From positions 1 to 58,224 of the IMG/VR virus record IMGVR_UViG_3300036761_003285: a stretch of 58,224 nt of DNA; one strand, written 5' to 3'. Positions within the stretch are counted from its first letter, which is position 1. The number at the start of each line of letters is the position of its first letter. This stretch comes from a virus. The notes under the pieces are model-generated. The model was not told the DNA's origin. It saw only the letters and a list, made by a program, of their open reading frames with translations, and searched no databases. Below, in pieces: positions 8,489-45,786 of this stretch. The translations under genes and the position numbers were made by a program.

Positions 8489-8857
8489 ATGATCAAGCAT
8501 CTTGAAAAACGAGTTGTTGTTGACAACAGGTACGCACTGACTGATATTCATGTTGACGATTTCGTGGGCCCCGGCCGTCGCCGCTATGGCTTGTGGAAGG
8601 CTCCGGCGATCAAGACACTTCCAGAGCTCCCTCTGAGCGAAGGTACGTACTTTAGGTACACAATCACTGCTGCAGATATCGGACGAATTGATCTCATTGC
8701 TTGGAGACACTATCAGGACGTGAATCTCTGGTGGGTCATTGCCCGGTGTAACGGGATTGCGAACCCGTTTGAGGATTTGGTCATAGGGCGGGTTCTTCTG
8801 ATTCCATACAAAGCGCTGGTGGTACAGGCCATCGAGCAAGGTAGAACTTTCGTATGA
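8489..8857 (+). CDS. LysM/gp53-like baseplate wedge protein
   Basis: 122 residues. The C-terminal half (DLIAWRHYQDVNLWWVIAR, then NGIANPFEDLVIGRVLLIP) has the LysM-like pattern of tail X and T4 gp53-type baseplate proteins, in which a residue pair such as LW precedes a strand ending in LxIP. It probably joins wedge or hub parts. Ribosome site AGGAG before ATG 8489; four-base overlap with the next gene. Confidence 0.75.
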   Translation: MIKHLEKRVVVDNRYALTDIHVDDFVGPGRRRYGLWKAPAIKTLPELPLSEGTYFRYTITAADIGRIDLIAWRHYQDVNLWWVIARCNGIANPFEDLVIGRVLLIPYKALVVQAIEQGRTFV

Positions 8858-10648: not shown

Positions 10649-13045
10649 ATGGATTTGTATTCACTACTTCCGGCTGTCATCAGATTCAAAGACTCGCTCA
10701 CTAAGGGAAGTGTCGGTGAGGGCGTCGTTGAGCGAATCATCTACATGATGGAGCAGGAAGGAGAAACAACAGGAGATCTCATAGCGGGGTTACTTGATCA
10801 GATCAATCCTGATGAATGCGATGCAAAGTTCTTGATCTACATCTCGTTGACCCTCGGGTTTGCCGTTTCAGAGAATGCCGGTCAACCTCCGTCTGAAGAC
10901 TTTGCCCGTTGGTTTACAAAGAATCTCGTCAATTTCTACAAGATACGCGGGCGTCCGTTCTCATGGAAGAAGCAGTGGCAGTACTTAGAGACTGGTGGTG
11001 ACAGATATCTTGAGGCCTGGGAGCTGTGGAAGGACATTCCATACGAGAGGGGTCACTACTATAGGTACGGCGGCGGGGATGCGTACTATGGGCTACTTCA
11101 TGCTGCCCGTGTAGATCTCTTTAGAGAGATCAGCGGCATCAAAGAGTTCCTGCCTGTTCTCGAAGCCATGGGTCACATGCCTACTATTGAGTGGGTTCGG
11201 CCGATCCATGTTCTGCTTCGGATGAACTACTTCACTCCTGATTTCTACGAGACCGCCGAGTTGATCTCGGATGACAATCGTGATTTTGAAGCGCTTTACC
11301 AGCCCGCAGATCAGTTGTTGAATCCATCAGATGAGTTGGACATCATCATTTCCTGTCTTGCCTCGTGTGAAACAGTGTGTGAGTCCGGGCAAGAAACAGG
11401 CTGCCTGACTTCATGCGAAGCTGATTGTGAACCGATGTACGAAGCAGCCGGCCCGCCCGGCCCGCCCGGACCCCCGGGCCCGCCAGGAGGACCCGGAGCT
11501 GATGGGTGCGACGCATGCGTTCAAGGTGTGGTCTTCCCATCAGATTCAGGAGGGAAGATTGTTATTGTACTTTTCGACTACTTTGAATGCTGGGAAGTGG
11601 GAGAGTTGATCTGCGTTGAGATTCTTGATAAGCCATCTGGTCCTGTCCCGCCCACTGCTCCAAACCTCTTTAAGTTCGAGACAACCATAACCCAGATTGA
11701 GCACTACGGCGGTGTTCTGGCAAAGATTCATCTGGACAAGTTCCAGGCAGGCACAGGCATCAAGACTGATGATTATGCGATTGTGTGCCATGGAGCGTGT
11801 TCTTGTGACGCTTGTGAAACGCAAACAACCTTTGACGCGTCCACAGGAGCTCAGCTAATCACGTTCGAAACTCACAATCCATACTGCTGGCGGAAAGATG
11901 AGCCTGTCTGTGTCTATGTTCCTGATCCTACGTGGAGATATGTCAGTACAGGCAATGTAACACAGAAGCCTACTTTCAATCTGTCAAAAAAGAAGTGGTA
12001 CGTTGAGCTTTCCGTTCAGAAGCCGCCCATTGCCAGCGGAACGATCAATCTGAAGATCGTTATCTGCCATGGAGGGTGCCCTTACACAGGACCTACCGGA
12101 CCTCGTGGTCCTACAGGACCAGCCGGGAGACCCACTGGTTTTACTGGTCCTCAGGGTCCTACAGGACCAGCAGGAGGCGGTACCGGAGGAGGCCCCACAG
12201 GACCAACCGGAGAAACTGGTTGTGACGCGTGTGTCATTGCGACGTATCTCGGAGTGGATGGTTCAGGCAGGATCAAATTCACTGTTCCTGATGATGAGCG
12301 ATGTTGGACTGTGGGAGAAGATGTTTGTGTTTCAAACATCATTCCAACGGGCGGTTCTGAACCGCCAAAGAGATTCACTGGTGTAGTGATTGACAAAGGC
12401 GCTGGATACATCACTACGGACATGCTGAATAGCAATGTGTTCATGGATTGGCAGACAAATGAGAAAGCTACAATCTGTCACGGCCCTTGCGCTTGTGATG
12501 CATGTGAAATCGTTACTGATTATGAGACTGAAAGTGCGGGGAAGTGGCTCAAGTTTTATACACTTCACTACCGGTGCTGGAAGGTAGGAGAATCTGTTTG
12601 TGCAAGTGTGATTTCGTGGAATTACCAATCAGATGGTACGATTGCGTCAGTGACAAGATTGCCCAGCCTAAATTGGGAAGTAAAGATTGATCTGGATCTT
12701 GATCCTGCTCATACTGGTTCCTACATCGGCATTGTGACTGAGATTTGTCATGGGAGTTGTGCTCCTACTGGCCCTACTGGCCCTACTGGTGCAGGTTTTA
12801 CTGGTCCTCGTGGTCCCACCGGTCCTGCGGGAAGTGGTACCGGAGGAGGTGGTCCCGGTACTTGTCCTGCTTGCTCTACATATCCACCTCCGGGAACTAT
12901 GAAAGTGCTCTGGCAGACAACAGGGGGGAGTTATCAAACCTCGAAGCCAACGCTCAAGGCTGGGGCGTTCTGGGAAACGACCTTGTATTGTTCTAATAAC
13001 CAGTACTGTTTGGTAAACGATCAAGTTTGTCTGCCACTGACCTGA
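10649..13045 (+). CDS. Tail protein I-like N-terminus fused to collagen-like, Cys-module fibre
   Basis: 798 residues from ATG 10649 (GTG 10640 in frame is unlikely). Residues about 1-240 resemble phage tail protein I / baseplate wedge proteins: a helical start, then RWFTKNLVNFYKIRGRPFSW, a typical feature of that family. After an acidic Cys-rich linker comes collagen-like GPPGPPGPPGPP (DNA about 11448-11500), then four modules with the pattern CDAC...CW-x-x-x-E-x-x-C...ICHGxC and a fifth partial one. GPTGPRGPTGPAG blocks (about 12088-12220 and 12763-12860) separate them in pairs. Likely a trimeric receptor-binding fibre attached to the baseplate. Gly-X-Y tracts in phage fibres form trimeric stalks. 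Confidence 0.75.
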   Translation: MDLYSLLPAVIRFKDSLTKGSVGEGVVERIIYMMEQEGETTGDLIAGLLDQINPDECDAKFLIYISLTLGFAVSENAGQPPSEDFARWFTKNLVNFYKIRGRPFSWKKQWQYLETGGDRYLEAWELWKDIPYERGHYYRYGGGDAYYGLLHAARVDLFREISGIKEFLPVLEAMGHMPTIEWVRPIHVLLRMNYFTPDFYETAELISDDNRDFEALYQPADQLLNPSDELDIIISCLASCETVCESGQETGCLTSCEADCEPMYEAAGPPGPPGPPGPPGGPGADGCDACVQGVVFPSDSGGKIVIVLFDYFECWEVGELICVEILDKPSGPVPPTAPNLFKFETTITQIEHYGGVLAKIHLDKFQAGTGIKTDDYAIVCHGACSCDACETQTTFDASTGAQLITFETHNPYCWRKDEPVCVYVPDPTWRYVSTGNVTQKPTFNLSKKKWYVELSVQKPPIASGTINLKIVICHGGCPYTGPTGPRGPTGPAGRPTGFTGPQGPTGPAGGGTGGGPTGPTGETGCDACVIATYLGVDGSGRIKFTVPDDERCWTVGEDVCVSNIIPTGGSEPPKRFTGVVIDKGAGYITTDMLNSNVFMDWQTNEKATICHGPCACDACEIVTDYETESAGKWLKFYTLHYRCWKVGESVCASVISWNYQSDGTIASVTRLPSLNWEVKIDLDLDPAHTGSYIGIVTEICHGSCAPTGPTGPTGAGFTGPRGPTGPAGSGTGGGGPGTCPACSTYPPPGTMKVLWQTTGGSYQTSKPTLKAGAFWETTLYCSNNQYCLVNDQVCLPLT

Positions 13046-13047
13046 GT

Positions 13048-14439
13048 ATGTCTTCTCCTTGTGATATTGCTACAAAGATGGGACTTGCCAAGGAAGCGAT
13101 TGACGGCCTTGTTAGTCGCTGTTTCACCGGAGTAACTCCCCCAGCAAAAGTTCCTACAGTTTGGTCTGACATGTGTGGTGACACGAGCGTCAGTCTGGCT
13201 CGCCAGATGTATGTGGATGTCGTGGCCCTGGTGGCAAGAACAGATAACACAGGCCATTTAACTGGTTGGGTTGATCCCGGAGCTCCTCCTACTTGTATCA
13301 CAGGTGCTTGGCTTGATAGCTTCATTGCTGCAGTCAATGCAGTTCTGTGTGAGTGTTGTCCTGATGGGATGGATGATTGCACAAGCAACTATTCTCCCTC
13401 AAGCACGCTTCAGATCAAGATCTGCTATCGTTCAGTCACGCTTACTTGGGACGGGGAAGCTGATGATTATTGGGTTGAGTACTGTTTTGTCGCTCCTCCG
13501 TATCCTTCGTATCCGTATATCTGCCTTCAGAAAACTGAAATGCCCGGTTCGTGTATAAAGTCAGGGAATAGTGGCTGGATAACTCCAAAAACTTACACAA
13601 TCCCTGCTGATACGGCTTGCAGTCGTTCAGAAAACTGGTGCTTGTACTGGCGTGTTAAGCCGAGATGTTGTGACAGAACGGAGGGAGATCCTTGTCCTAC
13701 TTGGGAGGAGGGGCCTTTTTCTGCAATCCAAAAAATACCTGTTGAAAATGGAAACGAGGGGTTCGCACCAGATGGATATCTTGATTGGTATCCGCCCGGA
13801 TCGAACTGTATTCCTTGCAGCGGAAGTTCAAAGCTTTGCGTGAAGTGGAAAGTTGGTCCTTGTTCTCGGCTTCTCAAACTCTGGGTGCGTCTCTTCACTG
13901 GTGGTGGAGCATGGACGGAAATAGTTCTAGATCAAATTGACGTTACAACGCAGAAGCAAGGGCAATCAGAGTATCCAATCAATCCAGCGTGGTGCACAGG
14001 AGGGGGGCCGTATGTGTCCGCGTGTGTTTTTGGAAAAGTATTCTCGAGCTCAGGAGTTGAGTGTGATATTCGTACTACGTCAACACTTCCTTTTCTGCCT
14101 CCTGGTCCTAGTTGTGCTTCGATGAATGGGTGTCAGGGTACTCATCAGCCATGCACGCCCGGGGCGATTTACCCGCTTACTTCATGGATAGTTATTAACG
14201 GAGGTCCAACCAAGAATCTGACGCCGTGGAAATGTGCGGGAGCGCCCGGCGGAGTACTCTACACGGTCTGGAGAGTAGTTGAGACAGTATACAACAGAAC
14301 TTATGCGTACGGGAATGTCAGTCAAGTTGCCACGCCCGACTGCCCGAACGGATTCCAGCTTATTGATCTTCCACCGTCGTGGACCCCCGAATACTTTACA
14401 TATCCCGGTTATATGAGACTTGAACTCGGTTGTTTCTGA
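13048..14439 (+). CDS. Cys-rich putative tail fibre or virion protein
   Basis: 463 residues from ATG 13048, directly after the collagen-like fibre (a TTG at 13027 would overlap it). About 30 cysteines are spread along the chain, often as CC or C-x-x-C (LCECCPDG, RCCDRTEGDPC, CIPCSG). The middle looks like repeated beta-domains of fibronectin type III flavour (VTLTWDGEADDYWVEYCF; LCVKWKVGPCSRLLKLWV). No enzyme motif and no signal peptide. Context suggests a second component of the host-contact apparatus. The cysteine abundance, shared with the upstream fibre, is unusual for a cytoplasmically folded phage protein. Confidence 0.65.
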   Translation: MSSPCDIATKMGLAKEAIDGLVSRCFTGVTPPAKVPTVWSDMCGDTSVSLARQMYVDVVALVARTDNTGHLTGWVDPGAPPTCITGAWLDSFIAAVNAVLCECCPDGMDDCTSNYSPSSTLQIKICYRSVTLTWDGEADDYWVEYCFVAPPYPSYPYICLQKTEMPGSCIKSGNSGWITPKTYTIPADTACSRSENWCLYWRVKPRCCDRTEGDPCPTWEEGPFSAIQKIPVENGNEGFAPDGYLDWYPPGSNCIPCSGSSKLCVKWKVGPCSRLLKLWVRLFTGGGAWTEIVLDQIDVTTQKQGQSEYPINPAWCTGGGPYVSACVFGKVFSSSGVECDIRTTSTLPFLPPGPSCASMNGCQGTHQPCTPGAIYPLTSWIVINGGPTKNLTPWKCAGAPGGVLYTVWRVVETVYNRTYAYGNVSQVATPDCPNGFQLIDLPPSWTPEYFTYPGYMRLELGCF

Positions 14440-15760: not shown

Positions 15761-17926
15761 ATGGCTTTGTGGTACGAGTGCGGTGCTGGATTTGTAAAAA
15801 CCCAAGTTGCCAGGGCAACAATTGGGGCAGATGTTTACTTGTGTTGCCCCGGGCCCTCTCTTGCCAAAGTCAATGATTTAGATCTTCATATTCCCGGAGT
15901 GGTGGTAGCCGCAATCAACACAGCATATCCAAAGATTAGACCGAATATCTGGTTGGGATTGGATGAACCGCAGTGTTACGACCGTCGCCTGTGGTTTGAG
16001 GGATTTGTGAAGATTACTCGAGGAAATTATAAGTTACTTGAGTGTGAAGGGAAGCCCATCAAAGATCTACCTTTCGTGTTTTTTGCTGACTGTGATTCAC
16101 CGAGTGCTGGAATTCGTGAAGTTGACTACATCCTTCAGCAGCGCGCTCACGATGTGAGGTTTGTTTGGGCGAAGAACACCTTGGTGTTTGCAATTCATGT
16201 TCTTGTGTGGTTAGGGGCTCGAAAGATCCATTTTGTTGGTTGTGATATGGGCGGGAACAAAGACTACTACGATTCTCGCATTCTTTCTGATGAAGAGCGG
16301 GCGAAGAATCAACTGCTCTATACACAGCAAGTTGAGTGGTTGCGTGAGTTTGTCCTGAAAGCCAAGGTTAGTGCAATCGAGTGCGTCAGTTGTACGGAAG
16401 GGTCTCCGTTGAATTCGATTATGCCATTTGTTCAACTAAGTGATGCTCTGAAAGCCTCTCGGAAACAGGCGCCCGAAGAGGCAGGTGAACTGATGCATTC
16501 GTCGAAATCATTTGAAGTTACAGCGACTCGAGAGTGGGCTAATGTTGTTCCTACGATTCCCGAAGCTGTGATGGTGGGAATCTCAAAGGCTGATGAAGAT
16601 CTCATTGATTGGTGGTGGTATTGGTTTTCAAAGACAAACTCTTACCCCGTACAGTTTGTTGATTTTGGCATGTCTGAAGAGGCCAGAAAGAAGTGTCGTT
16701 CTCTTGGTACTGTGATAGATCTCAATGACCCAATCAAAGAAGACGGGCAGCGGGGCTCGCTGAGAAAGCCGTTTGCTGCGCTTCTGACACACGCTGCACG
16801 GACAGTTTTCACAGATATTGATGCCGAGATTCGTGGCAATCTTGTATCTTTGTTCAAGCAAGATCTTGGTCCTCGAAAGTTCGCTGCAGCACAAGATTGG
16901 GCTGCTTCGCTAGCCTATCGAAAGAAAAACCCAAACACGGGACCTGTCATTTGCTCGGGTGTGTTTGTCTTTGATTACGGATCTGAAGTTGTAAAGAAGT
17001 GGGCTGATGCCATTCATACCCAGAAGGCAAAGTACAATGGTGATCAGTTGTATCTCAATGAGCTCTACTACAAGTGCGGCCTGTCAGACATCGTCCTTCT
17101 TGATGGCAAGGTTCATCGAACGCCACAGGAAGGCGATGATCCCGGAGTGTTGATCATGCACTACGGGGGCACGGCAAAGAATGCAGCCAGACGCGCGTGG
17201 GCTGCATTCAATTCAGGAATTCTTAGTGACCTATCCAAGGCCTATGAGTACAACTGGCGCCAGGCTTCGTTCAGTTTCACAAGAGGTGTAATTCTGGGGG
17301 CAGATCAAGCACAGGAGTGGATGCTCGAATGGTGGTGGGAGAACTACGATGCGCATAATACTCTACCTGTTTGCTTTGTTGATTTTGGTATGACCAAAGG
17401 GGCGCTTGATTGGTGCAGGCATCACGGAACAGTTACAGACCCAATTCACTTTGGTGGATACGCATGGTTCAAGAAGCCTTTGGCTACACTTGAAACCGTA
17501 TTTGCGAAAACGATCTGGCTCGATATAGACTGCCAAGTTCTGGGCAATCTTGATCCGCTCTTTGAGTACTGTAAAAGCAACGGTATCGGCATGACAGTGG
17601 ATCGAGGAACACCTGATCGGTACAAGCAGAGGTTGCCTCCCGAGGCAACCATCTACAACAGCGGCTGCATCGTGTACAACTTCAGAGACCCGGTCATGCC
17701 CCAGTGGGCGAAGATGACAGCGATCGTCTACGAGCAGCAGCCCGGGGATCAAGAAACGCTGGCACTGACGCTCAGAAGGTATGCAGTCGGCAGGATTCGT
17801 TCTATACCGAAAGAGCTTGTTCGACTACGCCTCGAAGAAGACGGCCCATGTATTGTGAGGCATTGGACTGGGCCCGTCGGCAAGGACAGAATCAGAGCAA
17901 TGAGTGTACAGGCAGAACTCAGATGA
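15761..17926 (+). CDS. Three-domain glycosyltransferase (DUF115-like plus two GT8-like domains)
   Basis: 721 residues. Residues 1-245: CCPGPSLAKVND (28-39), AINTAY and FVGCDMGGNKDYYD (158-171), the pattern of DUF115/Maf-type sugar transferases. Residues about 265-490 and 505-715 are two homologous GT-A-like domains. Each has a W-W-W helix (DWWWYWFSKTNSYPV; EWWWENYDAHNTLPV), then F-V-D-F-G-M, and a metal-binding DxD (TDIDAEIRGNL, D352/D354; LDIDCQVLGNL, D588/D590). Each also carries a late GDQ motif that fits GT8-type enzymes. The following gene is a third copy of this domain. Acceptor unknown; virion proteins or host surface glycans are both possible. Confidence 0.75.
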   Translation: MALWYECGAGFVKTQVARATIGADVYLCCPGPSLAKVNDLDLHIPGVVVAAINTAYPKIRPNIWLGLDEPQCYDRRLWFEGFVKITRGNYKLLECEGKPIKDLPFVFFADCDSPSAGIREVDYILQQRAHDVRFVWAKNTLVFAIHVLVWLGARKIHFVGCDMGGNKDYYDSRILSDEERAKNQLLYTQQVEWLREFVLKAKVSAIECVSCTEGSPLNSIMPFVQLSDALKASRKQAPEEAGELMHSSKSFEVTATREWANVVPTIPEAVMVGISKADEDLIDWWWYWFSKTNSYPVQFVDFGMSEEARKKCRSLGTVIDLNDPIKEDGQRGSLRKPFAALLTHAARTVFTDIDAEIRGNLVSLFKQDLGPRKFAAAQDWAASLAYRKKNPNTGPVICSGVFVFDYGSEVVKKWADAIHTQKAKYNGDQLYLNELYYKCGLSDIVLLDGKVHRTPQEGDDPGVLIMHYGGTAKNAARRAWAAFNSGILSDLSKAYEYNWRQASFSFTRGVILGADQAQEWMLEWWWENYDAHNTLPVCFVDFGMTKGALDWCRHHGTVTDPIHFGGYAWFKKPLATLETVFAKTIWLDIDCQVLGNLDPLFEYCKSNGIGMTVDRGTPDRYKQRLPPEATIYNSGCIVYNFRDPVMPQWAKMTAIVYEQQPGDQETLALTLRRYAVGRIRSIPKELVRLRLEEDGPCIVRHWTGPVGKDRIRAMSVQAELR

Positions 17927-18585
17927 AGCAAGGTGTTCTAGTTGGTTGTTCGAGAGAGCAAGAGGACTTGCTCGAATGGTGGTGGGGGTGCTACAGTAAG
18001 CACAATACCCTTCCAGTCTGTTTTGTCACTTACGAGTTTGATCTAAAGGACAGTCTTCGTTTGTTGGAAAGAGGCGAAGTGGTTCAAAGTAACGAACCTT
18101 TCTCCAAAGGGACATTCAGGAAGGTGACAGCATTTAGTTTGTCGCCATTTGATGTTAATCTCTGGCTGGATCTTGACTGTGAAGTTCGAGGCGATCTCAG
18201 TCCGATTTTCTCGCTCTTTTCCTCGGGTTGTGTTTTCTGCCCCCGGGGCCCTCGCAAGTGCGGAACAAATGATCCATATGGTTGGTTCAAGATGTGTAAC
18301 TCCGGGTCATGGGTGAGAGATACTGGTCTCATTCTTGCTGATCGAGACGGTCGTTTGTATCGAAAGTGGTTTGCTGATGTGCAAGCTTTCAGCCATATGT
18401 ATCACGGTGAAAACGAGACGCTTGTGGTTGTTGCTGACCGTGAAGGACTTCCGATTGGCGAGGTTTCAGATCAGATGTTTCAATCGTGTCATCTTAATGT
18501 ATACCCGAATCCACTCGTGTTCCACTGGATCGGAGGCCGCGGGAAGTATCTACTCAGAGAGAGGATCGCCCGTGAAAGACTTTGA
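17923..18585 (+). CDS. GT8-like glycosyltransferase, single domain
   Basis: 220 residues from ATG 17923, overlapping the previous stop as ATGA; the open frame extends to 17704, but that part is antisense-like noise inside the preceding gene. It is a paralogue of the two GT8-like domains upstream: LLEWWWGCYSKHNTLPVCFV (17-36) and LDLDCEVRGDLSP with DxD at 83-85. The middle contains FCPRGPRKCG. Tandem duplication of one domain is the simplest origin. Acceptor unknown. Confidence 0.75.
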   Translation: MKQGVLVGCSREQEDLLEWWWGCYSKHNTLPVCFVTYEFDLKDSLRLLERGEVVQSNEPFSKGTFRKVTAFSLSPFDVNLWLDLDCEVRGDLSPIFSLFSSGCVFCPRGPRKCGTNDPYGWFKMCNSGSWVRDTGLILADRDGRLYRKWFADVQAFSHMYHGENETLVVVADREGLPIGEVSDQMFQSCHLNVYPNPLVFHWIGGRGKYLLRERIARERL

Positions 18586-20962
18586 AGTTATTAACCCTAT
18601 TATTACTGGGAAACAAGAGCTGAGCTACCGAACAGGGCAAGGGAAGTATTATCACTTCAACGTGAGGGGTGATACTTTTGCTCTTGATGTGAACTCACTG
18701 ATGTTAATTCGAGGCCTGAAAGAGAATCTACCTCCTCCAAGTGACGAAGTTTCTCAGTTTCCATTCTGTCCTAATCGCAATGTGCTGGCACTTCTATTCT
18801 GTCTTACTCATCAGTGCAATCTGAAGTGCAAGTATTGTTACGTTGATCGGTTGTATTCATCTAACGATCGGATGACTCCCGAGATTGCCGCTACAGCGTT
18901 GACAACCTTGGTCAATCCTGATGCTGTGAGAAAGCAGGGGCTTCGGATCAGCTTTTTCGGAGGAGAGGCACTACTTGAATTCGAACTTCTCAAGCAGATT
19001 GTCTCGCTAGTCAGAACAGCTTTCCCGTCCCCCTGCCCTGTGCAGTTCAGTCTCACGACGAACGGGACGTTGTTGACTAAACCGATTGCTAAGTTCTTGG
19101 TTGAGCATAGCTTTTCAGTGATACTCTCGTTGGATGGCCCTCGTGAGCTCCACAATGAGACACGAATCTCTAGAGGAGGAGCGGGCTCCTTTGATGTTGC
19201 TCTTGAAGGACTCACTTTGTTGAACGAAGTAGCTCTGAAGAAGATTACTCTGAGAGCAACTTTCTTTCCCGAAAATCCTCGAATCATGGAGCGATTGGTG
19301 TTCTTGAATGCACTTTGTGATCAGGGCTTGGCTGCGAATGTCTCAATTGAACCTTCGATCTTGACTGAAAGTGAATGTGCCGCACAAGAGATTGATCAGT
19401 TTCAGGACAAGATCAACGCGGCAAGACTCGAGGCTGAGTACGCTGAGGCTACTGATTGGCTCCTCGGGCGATTGCGGCAGAAGAAGCCTGCGCGTTTCCA
19501 CAATATCATGCTCTATGCTGAGCGATTACTCTATCGTCGAAAGTACTGCAGTGATTGCGGAGCTGGCGTTGGGTATATCTCCATAGGACCAACAGGGAAG
19601 ATCTTTGCCTGCCACAGAGAGACCAACAGCTTGATCGGTGATCTCTCTCAGGGAGGGATAGACGAAGCACTAAGAGCACAGTGGGTAGACAATCGCTACT
19701 ATGTCAACAAAGAGTGTCGGCGGTGTGATCTTCGAAACGTTTGCGGAGGAACTTGCCGAGAGCATTCGCTTGGATCAATGGGTGATATCTTTGATGTTGA
19801 TCCGGTTCGTTGTACTTTCAAGCGACTGTGGATCCACTCAGCTGTGTATCTGATCTCCGAGCTTCCATCTGCTGATCGGACAAGTCTGATTCTGCAGAAG
19901 AAGCCACAGAAGGTCGAACTTCCTGATTCAAAGAAGGAGCGGTTCAACCTTGTTCGGGAAGCTGGCGGGTTTGGTGATATCATCTCCATTGGAGGTGCTG
20001 CTGTTCAGATCAAGAAGGAGTTCCCGAACTCGGAGATTTGCTTGTACTTGCCTGATGATTTCGTTGATGTTGCGAAGCATCTTCGTGAAATCGACCAAGT
20101 AGTAGGTCTTGGTTCTGTTGAGACACTATCTAAGCAACGTCGTGTTCGAGGCGAGAAGTTTGATTCTGGAAAGTACACATACCTTTCGAAAGTGGCTAAC
20201 CGGGGCTTAGTTGTTGATCTCTGGTGTCCTGCAGTCAAGTACGAGCAGCAAGAGAAGGATCGCATTCAGCACACACGTTCGCAGATCTTTGCAAGTGTGA
20301 TATGTAAGGAAGACTCACATGCGATTCCTCGTTGGTTCTCAACTCCTGCAGAACGTGTAAAAGCAAGTAGCTATCTGAACAAGGCATTTGGAGATCCTAG
20401 TGATACTGGACCAACAATCGCCCTGGCTGCAAGAGGCACAAAGGCGGAGAAGAATATTTCAGAGCACCATTTGCAGGATCTGCTTACTTGGTTGATCTCT
20501 AAGAACAGCAATGTTGTGTGGATGGATTGTTTGGATCCCTCTGTCATTCTACACGGGTTTGCCAACAACAAGATAGTTTGGCCGAATGTATCATTCTGTG
20601 AATCCGTAGCAATTCTCGAGCAGTGTGATCTTCTCATTTCTGTTGATACTGGAATCTTTCATGCTGGTGTGGCTGCTCGAGTTCCTACTGTTGGTGTGTT
20701 TGGGATGACAGATGGGAACCCTTATATTGGATTCTACCCCTTGACGTACGTCGTACAGAATGAAGTGCCCCATGAAGGCATTTGCACGATACCTTGCAAT
20801 TCATCTTCGGAAAAAGGACACATTGTAGGTTGTAGTCTGGCATGCGCGCGGATGCAGAACTTGTCGTTTGATGAGTTGAAGCTGGCTGTTCTTTCGGCAA
20901 TGAAGACGGCATCAGCTCCTCAGTTTCAGGAGTACCGGTTGCGCCTATTTGATGAGAAATGA
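18572..20962 (+). CDS. Radical SAM/SPASM enzyme fused to GT9-type glycosyltransferase
   Basis: 796 residues from GTG 18572, chosen because AGAGAGG lies just upstream and the longer frame is noise within the previous gene. Residues about 70-300: radical SAM domain with CNLKCKYC (C82, C86, C89), FFGGEALLE (128-136), TTNGTLL and LSLDGP (186-190). Residues 326-414: SPASM Cys set (CSDCG, CHRE, CRRC, CGGTC, C414) for auxiliary Fe-S clusters. Residues about 455-796: GT9/heptosyltransferase-like domain with GGFGDIISIGG (465-475) and SVDTGIFHAGVAARVPTVGVFG (split: SVDTGIFHAG at 690-699). SPASM enzymes usually modify peptides. Fusion with a glycosyltransferase is rare to my knowledge. Confidence 0.85.
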   Translation: MKDFEVINPIITGKQELSYRTGQGKYYHFNVRGDTFALDVNSLMLIRGLKENLPPPSDEVSQFPFCPNRNVLALLFCLTHQCNLKCKYCYVDRLYSSNDRMTPEIAATALTTLVNPDAVRKQGLRISFFGGEALLEFELLKQIVSLVRTAFPSPCPVQFSLTTNGTLLTKPIAKFLVEHSFSVILSLDGPRELHNETRISRGGAGSFDVALEGLTLLNEVALKKITLRATFFPENPRIMERLVFLNALCDQGLAANVSIEPSILTESECAAQEIDQFQDKINAARLEAEYAEATDWLLGRLRQKKPARFHNIMLYAERLLYRRKYCSDCGAGVGYISIGPTGKIFACHRETNSLIGDLSQGGIDEALRAQWVDNRYYVNKECRRCDLRNVCGGTCREHSLGSMGDIFDVDPVRCTFKRLWIHSAVYLISELPSADRTSLILQKKPQKVELPDSKKERFNLVREAGGFGDIISIGGAAVQIKKEFPNSEICLYLPDDFVDVAKHLREIDQVVGLGSVETLSKQRRVRGEKFDSGKYTYLSKVANRGLVVDLWCPAVKYEQQEKDRIQHTRSQIFASVICKEDSHAIPRWFSTPAERVKASSYLNKAFGDPSDTGPTIALAARGTKAEKNISEHHLQDLLTWLISKNSNVVWMDCLDPSVILHGFANNKIVWPNVSFCESVAILEQCDLLISVDTGIFHAGVAARVPTVGVFGMTDGNPYIGFYPLTYVVQNEVPHEGICTIPCNSSSEKGHIVGCSLACARMQNLSFDELKLAVLSAMKTASAPQFQEYRLRLFDEK

Positions 20963-21798
20963 AAACGATTGACGTTGCTGTTTTCGTGAGGGACAGATAC
21001 GAGCATCTCGTGTTCTGTACTTCCTGGTTGAAGAACAGCAAGGAGTGCCCCGGAGTCGTGTTTAATCGGGTTGCCTATGACGACAGTAGTGCTGATTCAA
21101 GGGTTGGCGAGTTTCTTGGGGGTTCATATGACAAAGTAGAGTCGGTGCCGAGAGAAGTCACTGCTGTTGATCCTGAGCAGCGAATCGGATGGGCGCGGAG
21201 ATTGGCAGTACAGAACTTCCTGAAAAAGTCGATTGCAAACTTTCTGCTGCTTCTCGATAGTGATATCATCGTCACAAAAGAAACAATTGCAGAAGCTGTA
21301 AGAGATTACGAGGCGCTTAATGATTGGGTTGAGGTCGGAGGAGGTACCCTCTACGCCATCAGTCATACAACCGGGCAGATTCATGCGAACGGGAAACACT
21401 TCTCGAAGGTGGCTCTTACAGGTGATGCCCATATGCTGTTCAAGAGAGAGCATCTTGAGCGCATTGGAAACCACTTCAGTACGAAGCCAAAAGGATTTGC
21501 TGACAACCAGATTCAAGCGATTCGTGATCAAGGTAAGGTCTACTTTACTCGTATCAGTCCTCCTTATCAAGTGCAACACATTGGGTTCGGTGAGGGCGTA
21601 TCACTTGTCTACAAGCAGGAGAAGTTCAAACCCTCGTGGACAATGCGACCGTACTGGACCCATGAATCTAATCGAAGGATTCTTCAGGTGGAGAACTTTG
21701 ACGTATTACACTACATCAATTGCATCAATGCTGTGGGCGGCATCAGCGCACCTGAGGAGTACACGAAAACCAAAGGAATAGCCAATGAACACAAGTGA
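20959..21798 (+). CDS. GT2-like glycosyltransferase
   Basis: 279 residues, ATG 20959 overlapping the previous stop. It has a GT-A layout: AVFVRDRYEHLVFCTSWL at the N-terminus in place of the usual family-2 start, AYDDSS (nucleotide contact region), and LLLLDSDIIV with DSD at 100-102 for metal/UDP-sugar binding. GGGTLYAISH and a histidine near residue 213 follow, consistent with an inverting enzyme. It ends the cluster of sugar enzymes behind the fibre genes. The acceptor is unknown. Confidence 0.75.
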   Translation: MKTIDVAVFVRDRYEHLVFCTSWLKNSKECPGVVFNRVAYDDSSADSRVGEFLGGSYDKVESVPREVTAVDPEQRIGWARRLAVQNFLKKSIANFLLLLDSDIIVTKETIAEAVRDYEALNDWVEVGGGTLYAISHTTGQIHANGKHFSKVALTGDAHMLFKREHLERIGNHFSTKPKGFADNQIQAIRDQGKVYFTRISPPYQVQHIGFGEGVSLVYKQEKFKPSWTMRPYWTHESNRRILQVENFDVLHYINCINAVGGISAPEEYTKTKGIANEHK

Positions 21799-24453: not shown

Positions 24454-25122
24454 ATGGATTCAAAGTTTGATGGTGTAATCATTGTCAGCGGGGGTTTGGA
24501 TTCTACAACTCTTCTGTATCATCTTGTCAAGCAGAATCTCAAGATCACGGCACTCAGTTTCGACTACGGTCAGCGTCACTCAAGAGAACTCGTTTGTGCC
24601 TGCTGGCAGTGTGACTCCCTGAAGGTTCCTCACAAGATCATTGATCTCGGTAACATCAAGCAGCTTCTTCAGGGCAGTTCTCTCACTAGTCCTGAGATTG
24701 TCACACCTGAGGGGCACTACGCGCAGGAGAACATGAAGTTGACGGTTGTTCCAAACAGGAACATGATCATGTTATCCTTAGCGATCGCCTGTGCAATCTC
24801 TCTCAAGGCACCCAAGGTGTGGTATGGCGCTCACGCCGGAGATCACGCAATCTACCCAGATTGCCGCCCGGCGTTTGTCAAGGCCATGCAGAGGACGGCT
24901 GATCTTTGTGACTGGAATCCTGTTGACATCGAAGCTCCCTTTCTGGGAATCGACAAGGCTGGGATTGTTTCGATAGGTCTCGAGCTGGGTGTGAGGTACG
25001 ACCAGACCTGGACCTGCTACAGTGGCAGGGAGAAAGCCTGTGGGAAGTGTGGTTCTTGCAGTGAGCGGCTCGAAGCGTTTGAGAAGAACCATTTGAAGGA
25101 TCCACTTGAGTATGAGCATTGA
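24454..25122 (+). CDS. queC: 7-cyano-7-deazaguanine (preQ0) synthase QueC
   Basis: 222 residues, the usual QueC length. It has the ATP-pyrophosphatase motif SGGLDS (12-17), FDYGQRH (36-42), and the C-terminal zinc site CYSGREKACGKCGSC with C188, C196, C199 and C202. QueC converts 7-carboxy-7-deazaguanine to preQ0 with ATP and ammonia. It starts a deazaguanine group with folE, queF and dpdA downstream. The end overlaps folE by 17 bases. Such genes in phages serve DNA modification. Confidence 0.95.
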   Translation: MDSKFDGVIIVSGGLDSTTLLYHLVKQNLKITALSFDYGQRHSRELVCACWQCDSLKVPHKIIDLGNIKQLLQGSSLTSPEIVTPEGHYAQENMKLTVVPNRNMIMLSLAIACAISLKAPKVWYGAHAGDHAIYPDCRPAFVKAMQRTADLCDWNPVDIEAPFLGIDKAGIVSIGLELGVRYDQTWTCYSGREKACGKCGSCSERLEAFEKNHLKDPLEYEH

Positions 25123-25669
25123 CCAGAAGAAGCTCGAGCAGGCGACTCTGTTGTTCCTGGAAGGACTTGGTCTTGATACAGAAGATCAGCACTTCAAGAA
25201 CACTCCGGCTCGAGTGGCTCGTGCGTGGAAGCAAGACTTCGGTGCTGGTTACGAGATGGATCCCGAGAAGGTCCTCACAGTGACCTTCTCGGATGACTAT
25301 GATGAGATGATCGTTGTGAAGGACATTCCCGTCCTGAGTTACTGCGCGCATCATGTGGTGCCTTTCTTTGGCAAGGCCAAGGTGGGTTACGTACCAAACA
25401 ACCGGCGTATCACCGGGCTCTCCAAGTTGGCGCGCATTGTCGATGTCTTTGCTAAGAGGCTTCAGGTCCAGGAGAGATTGACCCGGCAGGTTGCCAGTGC
25501 CATCAATGATATTCTCAAACCCAAAGGGGTTGGTGTAGTGATTTCAGCGAGTCACATGTGCATGAGTCACAGAGGTGTTCGTGCGGTGGGGAGTGAGACT
25601 GTCACGAGCTGCCTCATAGGGTGCATGAGAGATGAGCCAGAAACGCGAGCTGAGTTCCTCCAGTTCTAA
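25106..25669 (+). CDS. folE: GTP cyclohydrolase I FolE
   Basis: 187 residues, close to the normal length of FolE. Zinc and catalytic residues are visible: SYCAHHVVPFFG (C80, H82, H83), GLSKLARIVDVFAKRLQVQE (104-123) and SASHMCMSHRG (C152). It makes 7,8-dihydroneopterin triphosphate from GTP, the first step to 7-deazaguanines. The start is either ATG 25106 or ATG 25112. It overlaps the next gene by 38 bases. Confidence 0.95.
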   Translation: MSMSIDQKKLEQATLLFLEGLGLDTEDQHFKNTPARVARAWKQDFGAGYEMDPEKVLTVTFSDDYDEMIVVKDIPVLSYCAHHVVPFFGKAKVGYVPNNRRITGLSKLARIVDVFAKRLQVQERLTRQVASAINDILKPKGVGVVISASHMCMSHRGVRAVGSETVTSCLIGCMRDEPETRAEFLQF

Positions 25670-26108
25670 GCCCGAGGTAGTAAAGCGTTATTTGTGTTGG
25701 GATGAGTACTACGGGCTTGTTGTGGATCTTGCCGAGATGATTCTTCAACACGCACCTGGAACAAAGCCGATCTACCTGATTGGTATCCCTCGAGCAGGGG
25801 GGCTGCTCGCTCTTCTCATGACTTACCTTCATGACCGGTTTTTCATGTTTGATCAAGGTGCAGTGATTGACCCAAAAAGAGCACACATCTTCGTTGTCGA
25901 TGACATCCTCGATACGGGCACCACACGAAAGGCCTACGGAACCTTATATCCCTGGGCAGTATTGATTGACAAATCGCCAATCACGAAGATTCCGCCTGCA
26001 GATCTCGCTGCCGACACATTGACCCATAGGCAGTGGGTTGTATTTCCTTATGAGGTGGATAATAGCAAATCAGAGAATATCAGCAGAAAGGCGCGCGGGT
26101 ATGATTAG
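25632..26108 (+). CDS. Phosphoribosyltransferase-family protein
   Basis: 158 residues. IFVVDDILDTGTT (86-98) is the PRPP-binding loop of type I phosphoribosyltransferases; IGIPRAGG (50-57) is the upstream pyrophosphate-loop strand; QWVVFPYE (134-141) is the conserved end strand seen in purine PRTases. Substrate unknown. It is embedded between folE and queF with overlaps on both sides, so a purine or 7-deazapurine related role is possible, but that is inference from location. Confidence 0.8.
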   Translation: MSQKRELSSSSSKPEVVKRYLCWDEYYGLVVDLAEMILQHAPGTKPIYLIGIPRAGGLLALLMTYLHDRFFMFDQGAVIDPKRAHIFVVDDILDTGTTRKAYGTLYPWAVLIDKSPITKIPPADLAADTLTHRQWVVFPYEVDNSKSENISRKARGYD

Positions 26109-26562
26109 GAGAGCAAAAGATGACGTTTCGAAGCTGAAGTCGCTCGGAAGTAAGGTGACGATCTACCCAAATTGTTCCGGAGCGAATGTGCTTCTGCTCG
26201 AGCGCTTCCCAAACAAGTTTGAGGCTCCTTACATGGTCGAGCTCAGAACGAGTGAGTTTACCTCACTCTGTCCCAAGACCGGACAACCTGACTTTGGTAA
26301 GATCAGGGTCAGATACATTCCGAACAGGTGGTGCATCGAGTCCAAGGGGTTCAAGTTGTACATGTTCTCGTACCGTGGCGAGCATAGCTTCATGGAGACC
26401 ATCACGAACAACATTCTGAAGGCTCTCTCCTTACTGGTCCATCCAAACTGGATGGAGGTCACCGGAGACTTTGCTGCTCGAGGCGGTGTCGGGATCAAGG
26501 TTGTTGCCACCTACGTCAAGGGCCAGGTACCATCCTCTCGGATGTCGAGAAAGGGCCGATGA
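26101..26562 (+). CDS. queF: NADPH-dependent preQ0 reductase QueF
   Basis: 153 residues from ATG 26101 (overlapping the previous stop). The QueF signature is present: SLCPKTGQPDFG with nucleophile C57 and D64, and ESKGFKLYMFSYR (80-92), the NADPH-binding motif that amidinotransferase relatives lack. H95 and E99 follow. It reduces preQ0 to preQ1. With QueC and DpdA this predicts preQ1 as the base put into phage DNA. The length equals the single-domain (Bacillus-type) form. Confidence 0.93.
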   Translation: MIRRAKDDVSKLKSLGSKVTIYPNCSGANVLLLERFPNKFEAPYMVELRTSEFTSLCPKTGQPDFGKIRVRYIPNRWCIESKGFKLYMFSYRGEHSFMETITNNILKALSLLVHPNWMEVTGDFAARGGVGIKVVATYVKGQVPSSRMSRKGR

Positions 26563-27554
26563 AGATTCTCTATGCATCTGCATCCTTCGCGGCGCAATAT
26601 CATCTTGTTGCTACGGCACAGAACATTCTTGAGGCCTGGCCTAAGTTGTCGTCGGCGAAGGACCTGATGGAGTTTCTGAAAAGTAATCCAGACCCGGAGC
26701 GAACTGCTCTGCTCGATAGCGGAGTGTTCAGTACGTGGAGTCGAGGTGATGAGGTAAATATCGACGCCTATATCAAGACCTGCCATGAACTGATCAATGC
26801 CGGGATCTTTTCTGAGACTGTCAACGTTGACGTAATTCCCGGTAAGTGGGGCCAGATTCCTAGTCCACAGCAGGTCGAGGAGTCTGCTGCAAAGGGCTGG
26901 CAGAACTACATGTATATGATCGAGCACGGTCTTGCTCCTCACAAGATCGTTCACGTCTTTCACCAGGGCGAGGAATTCAAGTGGATCCAGAAGCTCGTTG
27001 ATTATCATGACTACACTGTGAGGCAGGGAGGCGAGGGCCTCTATGTCGGCATCTCTCCGGCCAACGATCGAACAACCAAGCAGAGAATGCTCTGGCTTGA
27101 GCAGGTGATGCCTTATATCACCAACAAGGACGGGACAGCGAAGATGCGCTGGCATGGATTCGGAGTCACATCTTACGAGATCATGAAGCGTTATCCGTGG
27201 TTCAGTTGTGATTCTACGAGCTGGATGCGGGCCGGTGCCATGGGGCAGATCAAAGTTCCTCAGATTGATATCAAAGAACGTCCTTTCATGAACAGCAAGA
27301 TCCAGGTTGCACTTACGAAGCGATCGGGTATGAGTGCGAGTAATCTTCACTTTGACAGTCTATCTCCTGCTGAGCAGGAGTTTGTTCGTGAGTATCTCAA
27401 ACGTATCAACGTGTCGTTTGACGAAGCCTCTGCGGATGGCTCGTCAGGAGTTTCCGCTCGCCAGCATGCGAATCTACACTACTGGAAACAAGTCGAGAAG
27501 GAAATCAACACGTTGGACCTTCGGTGGAAGCCGATGCATCCAACATTCATCTGA
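26559..27554 (+). CDS. dpdA: DpdA-type DNA guanine transglycosylase
   Basis: 331 residues, ATG 26559 overlapping the queF stop. A TGT-like barrel: LLDSGVFSTWSRG (51-63), NVDVIPG with D91, GLYVGISP (160-167), and WHGFGVTS plus PWFSCDSTSW (213-222, D218). Phage DpdA proteins replace guanine in DNA with a 7-deazaguanine base, protecting the genome from restriction. Directly following QueF, it would most likely use preQ1. Assigned from motifs and gene neighbourhood. Confidence 0.88.
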   Translation: MKILYASASFAAQYHLVATAQNILEAWPKLSSAKDLMEFLKSNPDPERTALLDSGVFSTWSRGDEVNIDAYIKTCHELINAGIFSETVNVDVIPGKWGQIPSPQQVEESAAKGWQNYMYMIEHGLAPHKIVHVFHQGEEFKWIQKLVDYHDYTVRQGGEGLYVGISPANDRTTKQRMLWLEQVMPYITNKDGTAKMRWHGFGVTSYEIMKRYPWFSCDSTSWMRAGAMGQIKVPQIDIKERPFMNSKIQVALTKRSGMSASNLHFDSLSPAEQEFVREYLKRINVSFDEASADGSSGVSARQHANLHYWKQVEKEINTLDLRWKPMHPTFI

Positions 27555-28607: not shown

Positions 28608-28613
28608 GTGACC

Positions 28614-31202
28614 ATGGAAGATCTGACTCAACGAGCGTTCATAGTTGATGCCAACGTCTTGGCCAAGATGAATCGACGACGTCGCGTTTCACGCAAGGAC
28701 GTTGATGGCCCGAAGCGACCCGCCACGCCGGGCCGAAAGAGAACGATATCTCCGGTTGTTCGAGATTGTACTGTCTGCGGACTTGATAAAGAGTGTCAAT
28801 CACCAAAGATGGAGCCTACGGGTAACGGGCAGATGCAGATTCTGCTCTGTGGAGAGGCGCCGGGTGATGTTGAAGATCACAAAGGTGTGCAGTTTGTTGG
28901 ACCTACTGGATCGCATCTTGATGATAGTATAAGAGAGCTTGGGATTGAGATGCATCGAGATTGCTTTCTTACTAACGCAATCCAGTGCAAGCTGCTTGCA
29001 GGGTCGGGAAAGAAGAAGGCTAAGATGGACTTTTGGGCCGACTGCTGTAGAGCTCGGCTTGAAACTCAGATACTCCGTATGAAGCCTCGGCTAATCATTG
29101 CCTTTGGCGCTCCGGCGATGCGAGCAATACTCAGGCCAAAGTTTGGTGATCCGGGCTCTACACAGTACCACGGTCTCGTCTTTCCCTCTCTGAAGTTCAA
29201 CTGCTGGGTAGGGTGCTGCTGGCATCCATCATACGTGACCAGGGAGATCGAGAAAGGCAACGAGAGCATCCAAGAGTTGTTCTTGCAAGCGCTGGCAACC
29301 TTTCTTGATTTCCTAGGAAAGCCGATTCCTGCACCCCTTCCAGAGAATCACATTGTTCTCAAAGACTTCGACCTCGCCCGTGAGTTTCTTCAGGGCATGT
29401 GTCAGTGTACTTTGCCCACAGCATTTGACTACGAGACAACCAGATTGCACCCATCTGGTGGACCTGAGTCGCGAATCTACTGTGCGTCTTTCTCTACTAA
29501 CCCCGAAGAGGGGTTTTGGCTTCCTCTCCAGATGCCTGCATTTTGGACTCCCGAACAGCAAGTTGAGCTTCTCGTTCTCCTCGGTGAGTGGCTGAGATCA
29601 CCGTGCCCGAAGGTGATTCAGAATCGATCGATGGAAGAGCGTTGGTCAGCATCAGAGCTTGCCACGGAGATCGAGAATGTTATCAACGATACCATGGTAA
29701 CACATCACGTCATCTACAACCGGGCTCGTACGACGAATCTGGGCTTTCAGTCGTTCATGCTGAGGGGTGTTGACTACAAAGGTGAGGTCAACGTCGAGCA
29801 GAACGATTGGTGTGACCACGAACCAATTGATAAAGTCATCAAGTATTCGTGTTACGATTCGCAGTATACCCTTCTTGCTCACCAGGAGCAACAGAAGATT
29901 CTAGATCGAGAACCTGTCCTCAAGCAGGCAGCGGGATTCTTTCTTAAGTGCCTCAAGCCACTGATCAGAATGGAGGTTAGAGGCTTTGCCGTGGATAAGA
30001 AGAGGCTTGCTGATCAGCGCAAGGAGGCCGAGACCAAGCAGGCCGAGTGTGCTAATTTCATTGCCAAGCATGAGTTTGTCGAGCAGTTCAAGAAGAAGTT
30101 CGATCGTGACTCATGGGGACCGGGATCGGACAAGGATTTCATTGATCTCTTCTACCGCACTCTCGGATTGAAACCTCCGCCGTGGACTACAGAGGGCGGA
30201 GGCTACCCGTCGGACAAGGACGCCGTTGCATTCATTCTGAAGAGTGTGCAAGACGCCAAGCTGAAAGAGTTCTTTGAAAAGATGCTATCTTGGCGGAGGT
30301 ACGACACTCTGCTGTCAACTTTCATTGGCGGGTTCGAGAGAGCTCTTCAACCAGACGGTCTTATTCATCCAAGTTTTCTTCTCAACACTGTGGCTAGTTA
30401 CAGGTCGAGTTCTTCCAATCCCAATCTCCAGAATCTGCCAAAACGAGCGGAGGAGCATTCCGAGTTTCGCAAGATCGTGATTCCCCACGTTGGCAGCCTG
30501 ATCACAGAGGCAGATGCGAGCGGATCAGAGGTTGTAACGATTGCGATGATGTCGGGTGACGCGGTGTTGATCCAGCAGATCAAAGAAAAGTTTGATCCTC
30601 ATCGCTACTGGGCTACAAAGTTGTGGGAGTGGGATGATCCTTCCAAGGTGACGAAGAATCAGCGGTTCCTCTCCAAGAACAAGTTTGTCTTTCCTGAGTT
30701 TTATGGGTCCTACTACAAGACCTGCGCTGCAGATCTCGAACTTCCCGAGCGCCACGTCATGAGGGTTGAGAGAGAGTTCTGGCAGATGTACAAGGGCGTT
30801 AAAAGATGGCAGGAACTACTTGTAAAAGCTTACGACCGGACAGGTTACGTTGAGTTGCCGCTTGGGTTTAGGCGGTATGCTCCACTGTCGAAGAACCAGA
30901 TTCTCAATACTCCTGTTCAGGGAACGAGTTTTCACATGCTTCTTGAAGCCATTCGAGAGTCGGACGAGGAGATGGTTCGTCGACAGATGAGGAGTCTGAT
31001 TGAGCTCGAAGTACACGACAGTATGGTAACCGATGTGGTTCTGGAAGAGCTCGACGATGTCCGGAAGATCCAGTTGACGGCGATGACGAGACATCAGTGG
31101 GATTGGCAACGTGACGTGCCGAGAAGCGCTGAATGGCTCGAGGGTCCAAATTGGGGCGAGCAGAAAGAGGTCAAGGATGCTCTACCAACAAGTAAGGCCT
31201 AA
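28614..31202 (+). CDS. Uracil-DNA glycosylase / family A DNA polymerase fusion
   Basis: 862 residues from ATG 28614 (GTG 28608 possible). Residues 45-235: family 4-type uracil-DNA glycosylase with CTVCGLDKEC (C52, C55, C61) and CCWHPSY (C201/C202, H204) for a 4Fe-4S site, GEAPGDVED (80-88) and VGPTG. Residues 265-430: 3'-5' exonuclease (FDYE, D272/E274; CYDSQYT, D415). Residues 440-862: family A polymerase with SSSSNPNLQNLP (598-609), motif A TEADASGSEV (D633), motif B with FYGSYYK (696-702) and motif C EVHDSMVTD (D802; HDS instead of HDE). SPO1-type polymerases carry a similar glycosylase domain. The replicative polymerase of the phage. Confidence 0.92.
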   Translation: MEDLTQRAFIVDANVLAKMNRRRRVSRKDVDGPKRPATPGRKRTISPVVRDCTVCGLDKECQSPKMEPTGNGQMQILLCGEAPGDVEDHKGVQFVGPTGSHLDDSIRELGIEMHRDCFLTNAIQCKLLAGSGKKKAKMDFWADCCRARLETQILRMKPRLIIAFGAPAMRAILRPKFGDPGSTQYHGLVFPSLKFNCWVGCCWHPSYVTREIEKGNESIQELFLQALATFLDFLGKPIPAPLPENHIVLKDFDLAREFLQGMCQCTLPTAFDYETTRLHPSGGPESRIYCASFSTNPEEGFWLPLQMPAFWTPEQQVELLVLLGEWLRSPCPKVIQNRSMEERWSASELATEIENVINDTMVTHHVIYNRARTTNLGFQSFMLRGVDYKGEVNVEQNDWCDHEPIDKVIKYSCYDSQYTLLAHQEQQKILDREPVLKQAAGFFLKCLKPLIRMEVRGFAVDKKRLADQRKEAETKQAECANFIAKHEFVEQFKKKFDRDSWGPGSDKDFIDLFYRTLGLKPPPWTTEGGGYPSDKDAVAFILKSVQDAKLKEFFEKMLSWRRYDTLLSTFIGGFERALQPDGLIHPSFLLNTVASYRSSSSNPNLQNLPKRAEEHSEFRKIVIPHVGSLITEADASGSEVVTIAMMSGDAVLIQQIKEKFDPHRYWATKLWEWDDPSKVTKNQRFLSKNKFVFPEFYGSYYKTCAADLELPERHVMRVEREFWQMYKGVKRWQELLVKAYDRTGYVELPLGFRRYAPLSKNQILNTPVQGTSFHMLLEAIRESDEEMVRRQMRSLIELEVHDSMVTDVVLEELDDVRKIQLTAMTRHQWDWQRDVPRSAEWLEGPNWGEQKEVKDALPTSKA

Positions 31203-36697: not shown

Positions 36698-37384
36698 ATG
36701 AAAGTGGTTGAGATTTTTCAAACTATCCAAGGTGAAGGGCTCTTTTCTGGGGCTGTGACAGTTTTTGTGCGATTCGCGGGCTGCTCTCTCAGATGCCCTG
36801 AGTGCGATACCAAGTATGCCTGGGAAAACAAAGATATTCAGGAGGTTGGGGCCCCATTCGTTGTTGACAAGATCATCGATATCTCAGCTCGTCCTCGCCA
36901 CATCTGTATTACCGGCGGAGAGCCCCTCGAGCAACCCAAGAGTGACCTGTTCAACCTCCTTCAGATCTTCCATGGATGGGTCGGTAATAGGGGTCTTCAA
37001 TCAGTTGTAATTGAGACCAACGGTGCCCAAGATGTCAGCTGGGTGTTTGGCAAGCCATTCAGACCAATCACTCATTTGTCTGTTGACTACAAACTGCCCA
37101 GTTGCGGCAGAGAGGGAAGTATGCTGTTCAACAACTTCACCAAGTTGGGTAGTACGGATGTCATCAAGTTCGTCTGTGCAAACGTTGATGACGTCAACTA
37201 TGCCGGGATGGTACTGCAGAAACTCGCGGGCAACGTCGAAGCCTGTCCGGTGATTCTCTTTCACGCCCTTGGCGGGCAACCTGCAAATTGGCTTCCTCGA
37301 ATCATCTTGGGGTGGGAAGGCCTCCTCGAGCGATTTGACGTCCGGGTCGGTGTTCAGTTACACAAGTTGTATAAGGTGAGGTAA
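36698..37384 (+). CDS. queE: 7-carboxy-7-deazaguanine synthase QueE
   Basis: 228 residues. IFQTIQGEGLFSGAVTVFVR at the N-terminus is the QueE hallmark; radical SAM CSLRCPEC (C29, C33, C36) binds the 4Fe-4S cluster; ITGGEPLEQ (residues about 71-79) binds SAM. It converts 6-carboxytetrahydropterin to 7-carboxy-7-deazaguanine, the step before QueC. It lies 11 kb from queC/folE/queF/dpdA within the replication genes. The step before it (QueD) is not encoded in the window. Confidence 0.93.
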   Translation: MKVVEIFQTIQGEGLFSGAVTVFVRFAGCSLRCPECDTKYAWENKDIQEVGAPFVVDKIIDISARPRHICITGGEPLEQPKSDLFNLLQIFHGWVGNRGLQSVVIETNGAQDVSWVFGKPFRPITHLSVDYKLPSCGREGSMLFNNFTKLGSTDVIKFVCANVDDVNYAGMVLQKLAGNVEACPVILFHALGGQPANWLPRIILGWEGLLERFDVRVGVQLHKLYKVR

Positions 37385-45602: not shown

Positions 45603-45786
45603 TCTTCCTCTGACCTGGCGGGTGGCGTTACAGCAGAGTGACACACCCTCGGCATCTGGCAAGTGGTGGTGTCATATCACCACGACAAAGTCAGTTATGA
45701 CGCTTGCTCTTGGACCTTACAAAGACACTCCAAATGAGGCACTAGTATGTGCCCTGGACATGGCGCTGGAAAGCGATCCAAAGTGA
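45577..45786 (+). CDS. Hypothetical small protein
   Basis: 69 residues from ATG 45577, chosen because AAGAAGGAGG lies about 8 bases upstream; TTG 45556 in the same frame lacks such a site. Sequence MSIDELLHDLPLTWRVAL... then WWCHITTTKSVMTLALGP resembles small phage proteins with a single beta-alpha domain. Overlaps both neighbours. Unknown function. Confidence 0.6.
   Translation: MSIDELLHDLPLTWRVALQQSDTPSASGKWWCHITTTKSVMTLALGPYKDTPNEALVCALDMALESDPK

Follow-up and report, generated by a model that had tools for sequence, protein, structure and literature searches.

A phage gene cluster predicted to place preQ1 in DNA encodes an XGPRT-like protein, a putative partner of FolE

Described DpdA phages and the present gene cluster

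Streptococcus phage Dp-1, which possesses DpdA and a QueF homologue, carries the cluster queF-queC-queD-queE-folE-queT-dpdA, and its DNA contains dPreQ1 (about 1.7% of G), without dG+ (archaeosine) (PMC6884629). HVTV-1, which also has a QueF homologue, contains mainly dPreQ1, with traces of dG+, and the DNA of CAjan and Rosebush contains dPreQ0 (PMC6884629). The same authors pointed out that, for a phage protein, the sequence makes it difficult to tell QueF from QueF-L (Hutinet et al., PMC6884629).

The DNA studied here, referred to as the window, is the whole virus record IMGVR_UViG_3300036761_003285 (58,224 bases), analysed at full length; it is a genome fragment, with open frames cut at both ends (220 codons on the left and 447 codons on the right). 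FolE, QueE, QueC and DpdA, members of the gene set used by phages for 7-deazaguanine DNA modification, are all found in it. Five genes of the + strand follow one another with overlaps of a few bases between neighbours, as in a single operon, namely those of QueC (24454-25122; PF06508, E=4e-64; TIGR00364, 203 bits for a cut-off of 150; 63% identity with the collinear relative G002); FolE (25112-25669), a GTP cyclohydrolase I of type IA with the CAHH and HMCMSHRG motifs (PF01227, E=2e-65; PRK09347 subfamily, above cut-off); an XGPRT-like phosphoribosyltransferase (PRT) domain protein (25632-26108); QueF (26101-26562) and DpdA (26559-27554). The operon adjoins DNA polymerase and clamp genes. QueE, a radical SAM 7-carboxy-7-deazaguanine synthase with the CX3CX2C motif, is encoded on the same strand (36698-37384; PHROG 2076, E=1.4e-33), at a position shared with the relatives G001 and G002; its top NCBIfam matches are QueE models, with scores below the model cut-offs. 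The original prediction had placed QueC, FolE, QueF and DpdA between 24454 and 27554 and QueE at 36698, and Pfam, NCBIfam and PHROG recovered all of them there. It had overlooked the gene at 25632-26108, though this gene overlaps those of FolE and QueF in the operon. No preQ1 riboswitch, other Rfam family or tRNA was found in the window.

Similarly to Dp-1, the window encodes DpdA (36% identical), QueF, QueC, QueE and FolE, with a clamp gene downstream, whereas Dp-1 has QueD and QueT in its cluster and shows no XGPRT-like gene there. With the Nipunavirus and Queuovirinae phages (PaMx25, NP1 and Quinobequin-P09), the window shares DpdA, the preQ0 genes, the downstream polymerase and clamp genes and the XGPRT-like domain, but in these phages the domain is fused to FolE and Gat-QueC stands in place of QueF (dG+ being predicted). 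The Nanhaivirus phages (Dinoroseobacter R5C and R26L; Pan1) have the same QueC-FolE-QueF-DpdA order, with QueE ahead of the polymerase, but their QueF is of the His type, QueD lies in the cluster, and no XGPRT-like domain was detected in the regions examined. The phage joins the DpdA/7-deazaguanine phages already known, and its likely product is dPreQ1.

QueD, which the original prediction had reported as absent, indeed gave no PF01242 match in the window, even at E<=10, an absence which says little as the window ends are open. That prediction left the supply of QueD to the host or to another part of the genome, and the second option is the one favoured by the collinear relative G002, the 135-kb record behind locus L012. 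G002 matches the window from 651 to 44770, with protein identities of about 27-67%, and it encodes a QueD with the HGH motif (58976-59368 of G002), about 11.5 kb upstream of the point matching the first base of the window. Because the window is a fragment and the collinear G002 has QueD, we expect QueD in the missing part of this phage genome; by analogy with G002 this is the simplest reading, and QueD is probably not supplied by the host.

QueF, DpdA and the predicted DNA modification

The window QueF (unimodular) matches TIGR03139 with 141.1 bits for a cut-off of 86.9. QueF proteins are defined by Cys55, Asp62, Glu97 and the QueF motif with Glu78 (PMC5372742), and the equivalents are all kept in the window protein, as C57, D64, E99 and E80, the latter within ESKGFKLY, a motif that departs from the family at a single position (G in place of S/A). 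C57, D64 and the NADPH motif (ESKGFK) stand where the original prediction had put them, as numbered from the start at 26101. The catalytic Cys, Asp and Glu of the T-fold nitrile-binding site are common to the window protein, the unimodular B. subtilis QueF and the Pyrobaculum QueF-L. The NADPH-binding motif, however, is shared with B. subtilis QueF and absent from QueF-L (5jyx), so that in this trait the window protein sides with QueF rather than with QueF-L, and its similarity is higher to B. subtilis QueF (E=5e-27) than to QueF-L (E=1.6e-6).

At two positions the window protein departs from B. subtilis QueF, with Met98 for His96 and Ile101 for Cys99, and given these two replacements its activity is not certain. 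Viral relatives of QueF and DpdA were retrieved with alignments; the window QueF or DpdA protein, used as a lone query against viral contigs, gave no matches. About 30 Met-type proteins occur among the QueF sequences of 80 viral loci plus references, including that of L012, and they form one clade in the tree (28 phage rows, support 96/76). Several apparent phage QueF hits (H49 and H50) come from contigs whose genes are bacterial in character, and these served as QueF references only. FME-type QueF is found in bacteria as well, at five loci (Mailhella, Bilophila, Humidesulfovibrio, a Desulfovibrio and a Planctomycetota MAG), with a canonical TGT in three of the genomes (E about 1e-160) and DpdA in none. 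Since three of these Met-type bacterial genomes have TGT and none has DpdA, the Met98 QueF most likely works there in ordinary queuosine synthesis. We considered Met98 as the mark of a new, phage-only activity, and rejected this view on account of the same bacterial loci. From these comparisons, Met98 is most likely a natural variation compatible with preQ1 synthesis, and the Met-type proteins suggest that nature tolerates another residue in place of the conserved active-site His of QueF.

DpdA (26559-27554) matches the phage DpdA families of PHROG 887 (E=1.5e-37). A Pfam search, the TGT model included, gave no match, nor did phmmer against the PDB, where the fold search alone succeeded. With tblastn, 171 phage records were matched, including the known DpdA phages 9g and Dp-1, the latter among the top matches by bit score. 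The structure model, built from 17 relatives (mean pLDDT 90), superimposes on 7ui4, the solved DNA preQ0 insertase DpdA, with a Z of 19.9 (3.0 A over 271 residues); TGTs tie with 7ui4 as the top structural match (~3 A, ~270 residues), and Foldseek ranks TGTs first too. Residues D53, D91, H135, H199 and D218 are invariant (D53, D91 and D218 across the 17 relatives). Inspected by eye, the protein has two cysteines only (C75 and C217), hence no TGT zinc site. From its sequence and model, we predict that this protein is a DNA transglycosylase inserting a 7-deazaguanine.

We propose that GTP would be converted by FolE, QueD (which should lie in the part of the phage genome yet to be sequenced), QueE and QueC to preQ0, which QueF would reduce with NADPH to preQ1; DpdA would then swap guanine in DNA for this 7-deazaguanine, and the resulting dPreQ1 would block host restriction enzymes. 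We hold it likely that the cluster works in this way, i.e. that it makes free preQ1, with reduction preceding insertion, and inserts it into the phage's own DNA, the XGPRT-like domain acting on or with FolE. The QueF score and the retained NADPH motif, together with the published chemistry of Dp-1 and HVTV-1, make dPreQ1 the best prediction, and the phage DNA very probably contains it as a partial replacement of guanine. The preQ1-type modification originally predicted thus stands as the best reading, upheld by the QueF family assignment and the analogy with Dp-1 and HVTV-1, in an account that had missed the fifth gene of the operon. The accompanying statement that QueF distinguishes preQ1 needs to be narrowed: the presence of a QueF homologue is not decisive in itself (PMC6884629), and QueF is favoured here by the TIGR03139 match and by the NADPH motif that the protein has kept.

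Other products may be envisaged. If the QueF homologue were a QueF-L, an amidotransferase whose substrate is the preQ0 of DNA, the phage DNA would carry dG+; two reports give HHpred labels of QueF-L for phage QueF homologues (PMC6884629; PMC7472734), and HVTV-1 does have its traces of dG+. We regard this reading as unlikely, since the window protein keeps the ESKGFKLY motif that QueF-L 5jyx lacks, is closer to B. subtilis QueF than to QueF-L by the E-values given above, and scores far above the TIGR03139 cut-off, and since dPreQ1 was found without dG+ in Dp-1. Alternatively, Met98 in place of the conserved His (along with Ile101 for Cys99) could leave QueF inactive, or acting late, so that the DNA would carry mainly dPreQ0, as that of CAjan and Rosebush does. 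By analogy with other phages, whose DpdA can insert preQ0 itself, dPreQ0 or a mixture is possible; dPreQ0 as the main product is nonetheless quite unlikely, in view of the occurrence of the Met variant in the phage clade and in the five bacterial loci, where three genomes have TGT and none has DpdA, and of the retention of all four QueF-defining residues (PMC5372742).

The genes could also raise queuosine in host tRNA rather than modify DNA, a role proposed for those phages that have preQ0 genes without DpdA (PMC6884629). Here DpdA is present, has neither a TGT Pfam match nor the zinc site, and shares an operon with QueF beside the DNA polymerase and clamp genes, all of which makes a tRNA role very improbable.

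An XGPRT-like protein without the flexible loop region

The gene at 25632-26108 escapes routine annotation because the PF00156 score of its product (23 bits) falls below the cut-off of 26.3. A family profile made of 22 relatives matched purine PRTases in the PDB (1vdm, E=9e-20; E. coli XGPRT, about 5e-14), and the xanthine PRTase model was matched by 20 of the 22 family members, the window protein itself being below the cut-off of that model. The structure model of the window protein (pLDDT 91) superimposes on 1vdm with a Z of 13.8 (2.5 A over 121 residues). Compared with E. coli XGPRT (Gpt) and the archaeal purine PRTases 1vdm and 4z1o, the family has in common the fold (Z 12-13.8), the PRGG-type loop (PRAGG in the window protein), the VVDDxxDTGxT PRPP motif (VVDDILDTGTT) and the W..FP.E base-binding end, and the purine-stacking Trp is invariant in it.

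The XGPRT-like family differs from these enzymes in being fused to or adjoining FolE, and in being devoid of 15-25 residues between strand 2 and the PRPP motif. In type I PRTases, the flexible loop that shuts over the active site lies in this region. The distance between the GG and DD pairs is 33 residues in the window protein and 23-35 in the cluster relatives, as against 48-56 in full-length PRTases (48 in the Yersinia XGPRT, 52 in 1vdm and 56 in the relative from phage MaInes). The window protein has the fold and the PRPP motif of type I PRTases, seemingly without the flexible catalytic loop. With the region closing the active site missing, catalytic salvage by this domain is doubtful; judging from the sequence and the model, the protein has the look of one that binds purines or PRPP, and its competence as a catalyst is in doubt.

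Distribution and putative role of the XGPRT-like domain

Searched with an iterated profile, 80 viral QueF loci yielded the domain in 30, each of which also has DpdA, and 80 bacterial QueF loci yielded it in none; these counts are not independent, as many viral loci are near-copies, and they refer to flanks of 10 kb in viruses and 6 kb in bacteria. PF00156 matches in L066 (far from QueF) and L089 are not of the loop-deleted family and were left uncounted. The QueC-FolE-PRT-QueF-DpdA order of the window recurs in L011 and L012, and the placements of the gene include FolE-PRT-QueF, QueD-PRT-QueE and QueE-PRT-QueC. The domain also occurs as the N-terminal domain of FolE, in 11 metagenomic loci, 10 of them distinct (L020, L021, L024, L032, L040, L043, L055, L079, L084 and L085/L086), and in the phages PaMx25, VpKK5, Quinobequin-P09 and VPv64. 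The fusions of the isolated phages PaMx25, Quinobequin-P09 and VpKK5 are annotated only as "GTP cyclohydrolase". Sphingomonas phage MMDA13, a cultured relative with DpdA and QueF, likewise carries a PRT-FolE fusion, a gene named only FolE in passages of the MMDA13 description.

When the PaMx25 domain was run against 50,697 phage records, 34 of them matched, including Pseudomonas, Xanthomonas, Stenotrophomonas, Vibrio, Variovorax and Sphingomonas phages; in annotated records, the matches lie in or overlap the GTP cyclohydrolase gene, with the exception of PIP, where there is no feature beneath. In Brevundimonas phage MaInes, the full-length, loop-bearing relative adjoins FolE. As some carriers use Gat-QueC in place of QueF, the domain is tied to FolE and DpdA, not to QueF. 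It is not essential, as none was seen in the examined cluster region of Dp-1, the best characterised phage with DpdA and QueF. Our literature search, which did not extend to subscription papers and supports a claim of novelty within that limit, found no paper on this domain in the context of phage 7-deazaguanine, FolE, DpdA or queuosine, and the word phosphoribosyltransferase is absent from PMC6884629.

The fifth protein probably feeds or controls FolE; its likeliest role would be to handle purines at the step where the pathway starts. One guanine would be freed per DpdA exchange and GTP is used by FolE, so that a FolE-linked domain could recycle the former into the latter, or sense purine supply and gate FolE; it might regulate FolE through the binding of guanine, GMP or PRPP, or salvage the guanine released by DpdA. 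On balance, we favour the view that the loop-deleted domain belongs to the machinery of 7-deazaguanine DNA modification in phages, as a recurrent part that has gone unrecognised, and is a purine-sensing or guanine-recycling FolE module that would couple DpdA exchange to precursor synthesis. That the protein is an active guanine phosphoribosyltransferase, supplying FolE with GMP made from the guanine that DpdA expels, is a more tentative proposal. It draws on the XGPRT similarity, on the retention of the PRPP motif and of the invariant Trp that stacks on the purine, on the fusion to FolE and on the loop-bearing MaInes relative beside FolE, and it is made doubtful by the short GG-DD distance of the dpd-cluster members, from which the catalytic loop is seemingly missing. 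As regards the role, the missing loop speaks for sensing, and the kept PRPP motif and acidic residue for catalysis.

The pathway itself being already known, the weightier point is this overlooked XGPRT-like FolE partner, which recurs in phages from a number of bacterial groups, cultured phages of Pseudomonas and Vibrio among them, hidden within GTP cyclohydrolase annotations. It makes testable how phages balance the drain on GTP against the guanine released by DpdA during base replacement.

A related PRTase with a full loop occurs in Cellulophaga phage phi13:1, the genome of which is without QueC; it is an exception to the association, and is not of the loop-deleted type.

Intein-like inserts in QueF and FolE

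In two viral loci, L085 and L086, QueF occurs as two pieces (8825-8986 and 10001-10246) that lie within a single open frame and are separated by about 340 residues. The insertion point falls exactly at the catalytic cysteine, and this placement is what would be expected of an intein. In a third locus (L084), the 652-aa fusion of an XGPRT-like phosphoribosyltransferase domain to FolE (12092-14047) contains an intein-like insertion, which interrupts its FolE part past the zinc-binding cysteine.

Neighbouring genes in other phages' clusters

The QueC-FolE-DpdA cluster of Edwardsiella phage ZHS comprises, between DpdA and a clamp gene, a gene annotated as nucleoside 2-deoxyribosyltransferase (9736-10146). 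The cluster of Flavobacterium phage immuto_3-5A (5974-9609) combines PRTase, FolE, DpdA and QueF with a phosphoribosylglycinamide formyltransferase; its annotated DpdA was not matched by our DpdA profile.

Other genes of the window

A single 796-aa protein (18572-20962), also kept in the relatives' genomes G001 and G002, joins a radical SAM domain to a family 9 glycosyltransferase domain. Several further genes that resemble glycosyltransferases flank structural genes, at 15761-18585, 20959-21798, 46528-47262 and 48639-49271, only the last having a Pfam match (GT25). The 44886-49271 region encodes a DUF1643 protein (E=1e-41) at 45747-46280, along with a number of small uncharacterised genes; for most of this region G002 had no counterpart. 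At the left end (1-660), a repetitive protein with GAPVSVGGxFYCxxNxLTSLE repeats is truncated by the contig end. The DNA polymerase A (28608-31202; E=2e-47) carries an N-terminal uracil-DNA-glycosylase domain (E=2e-20).
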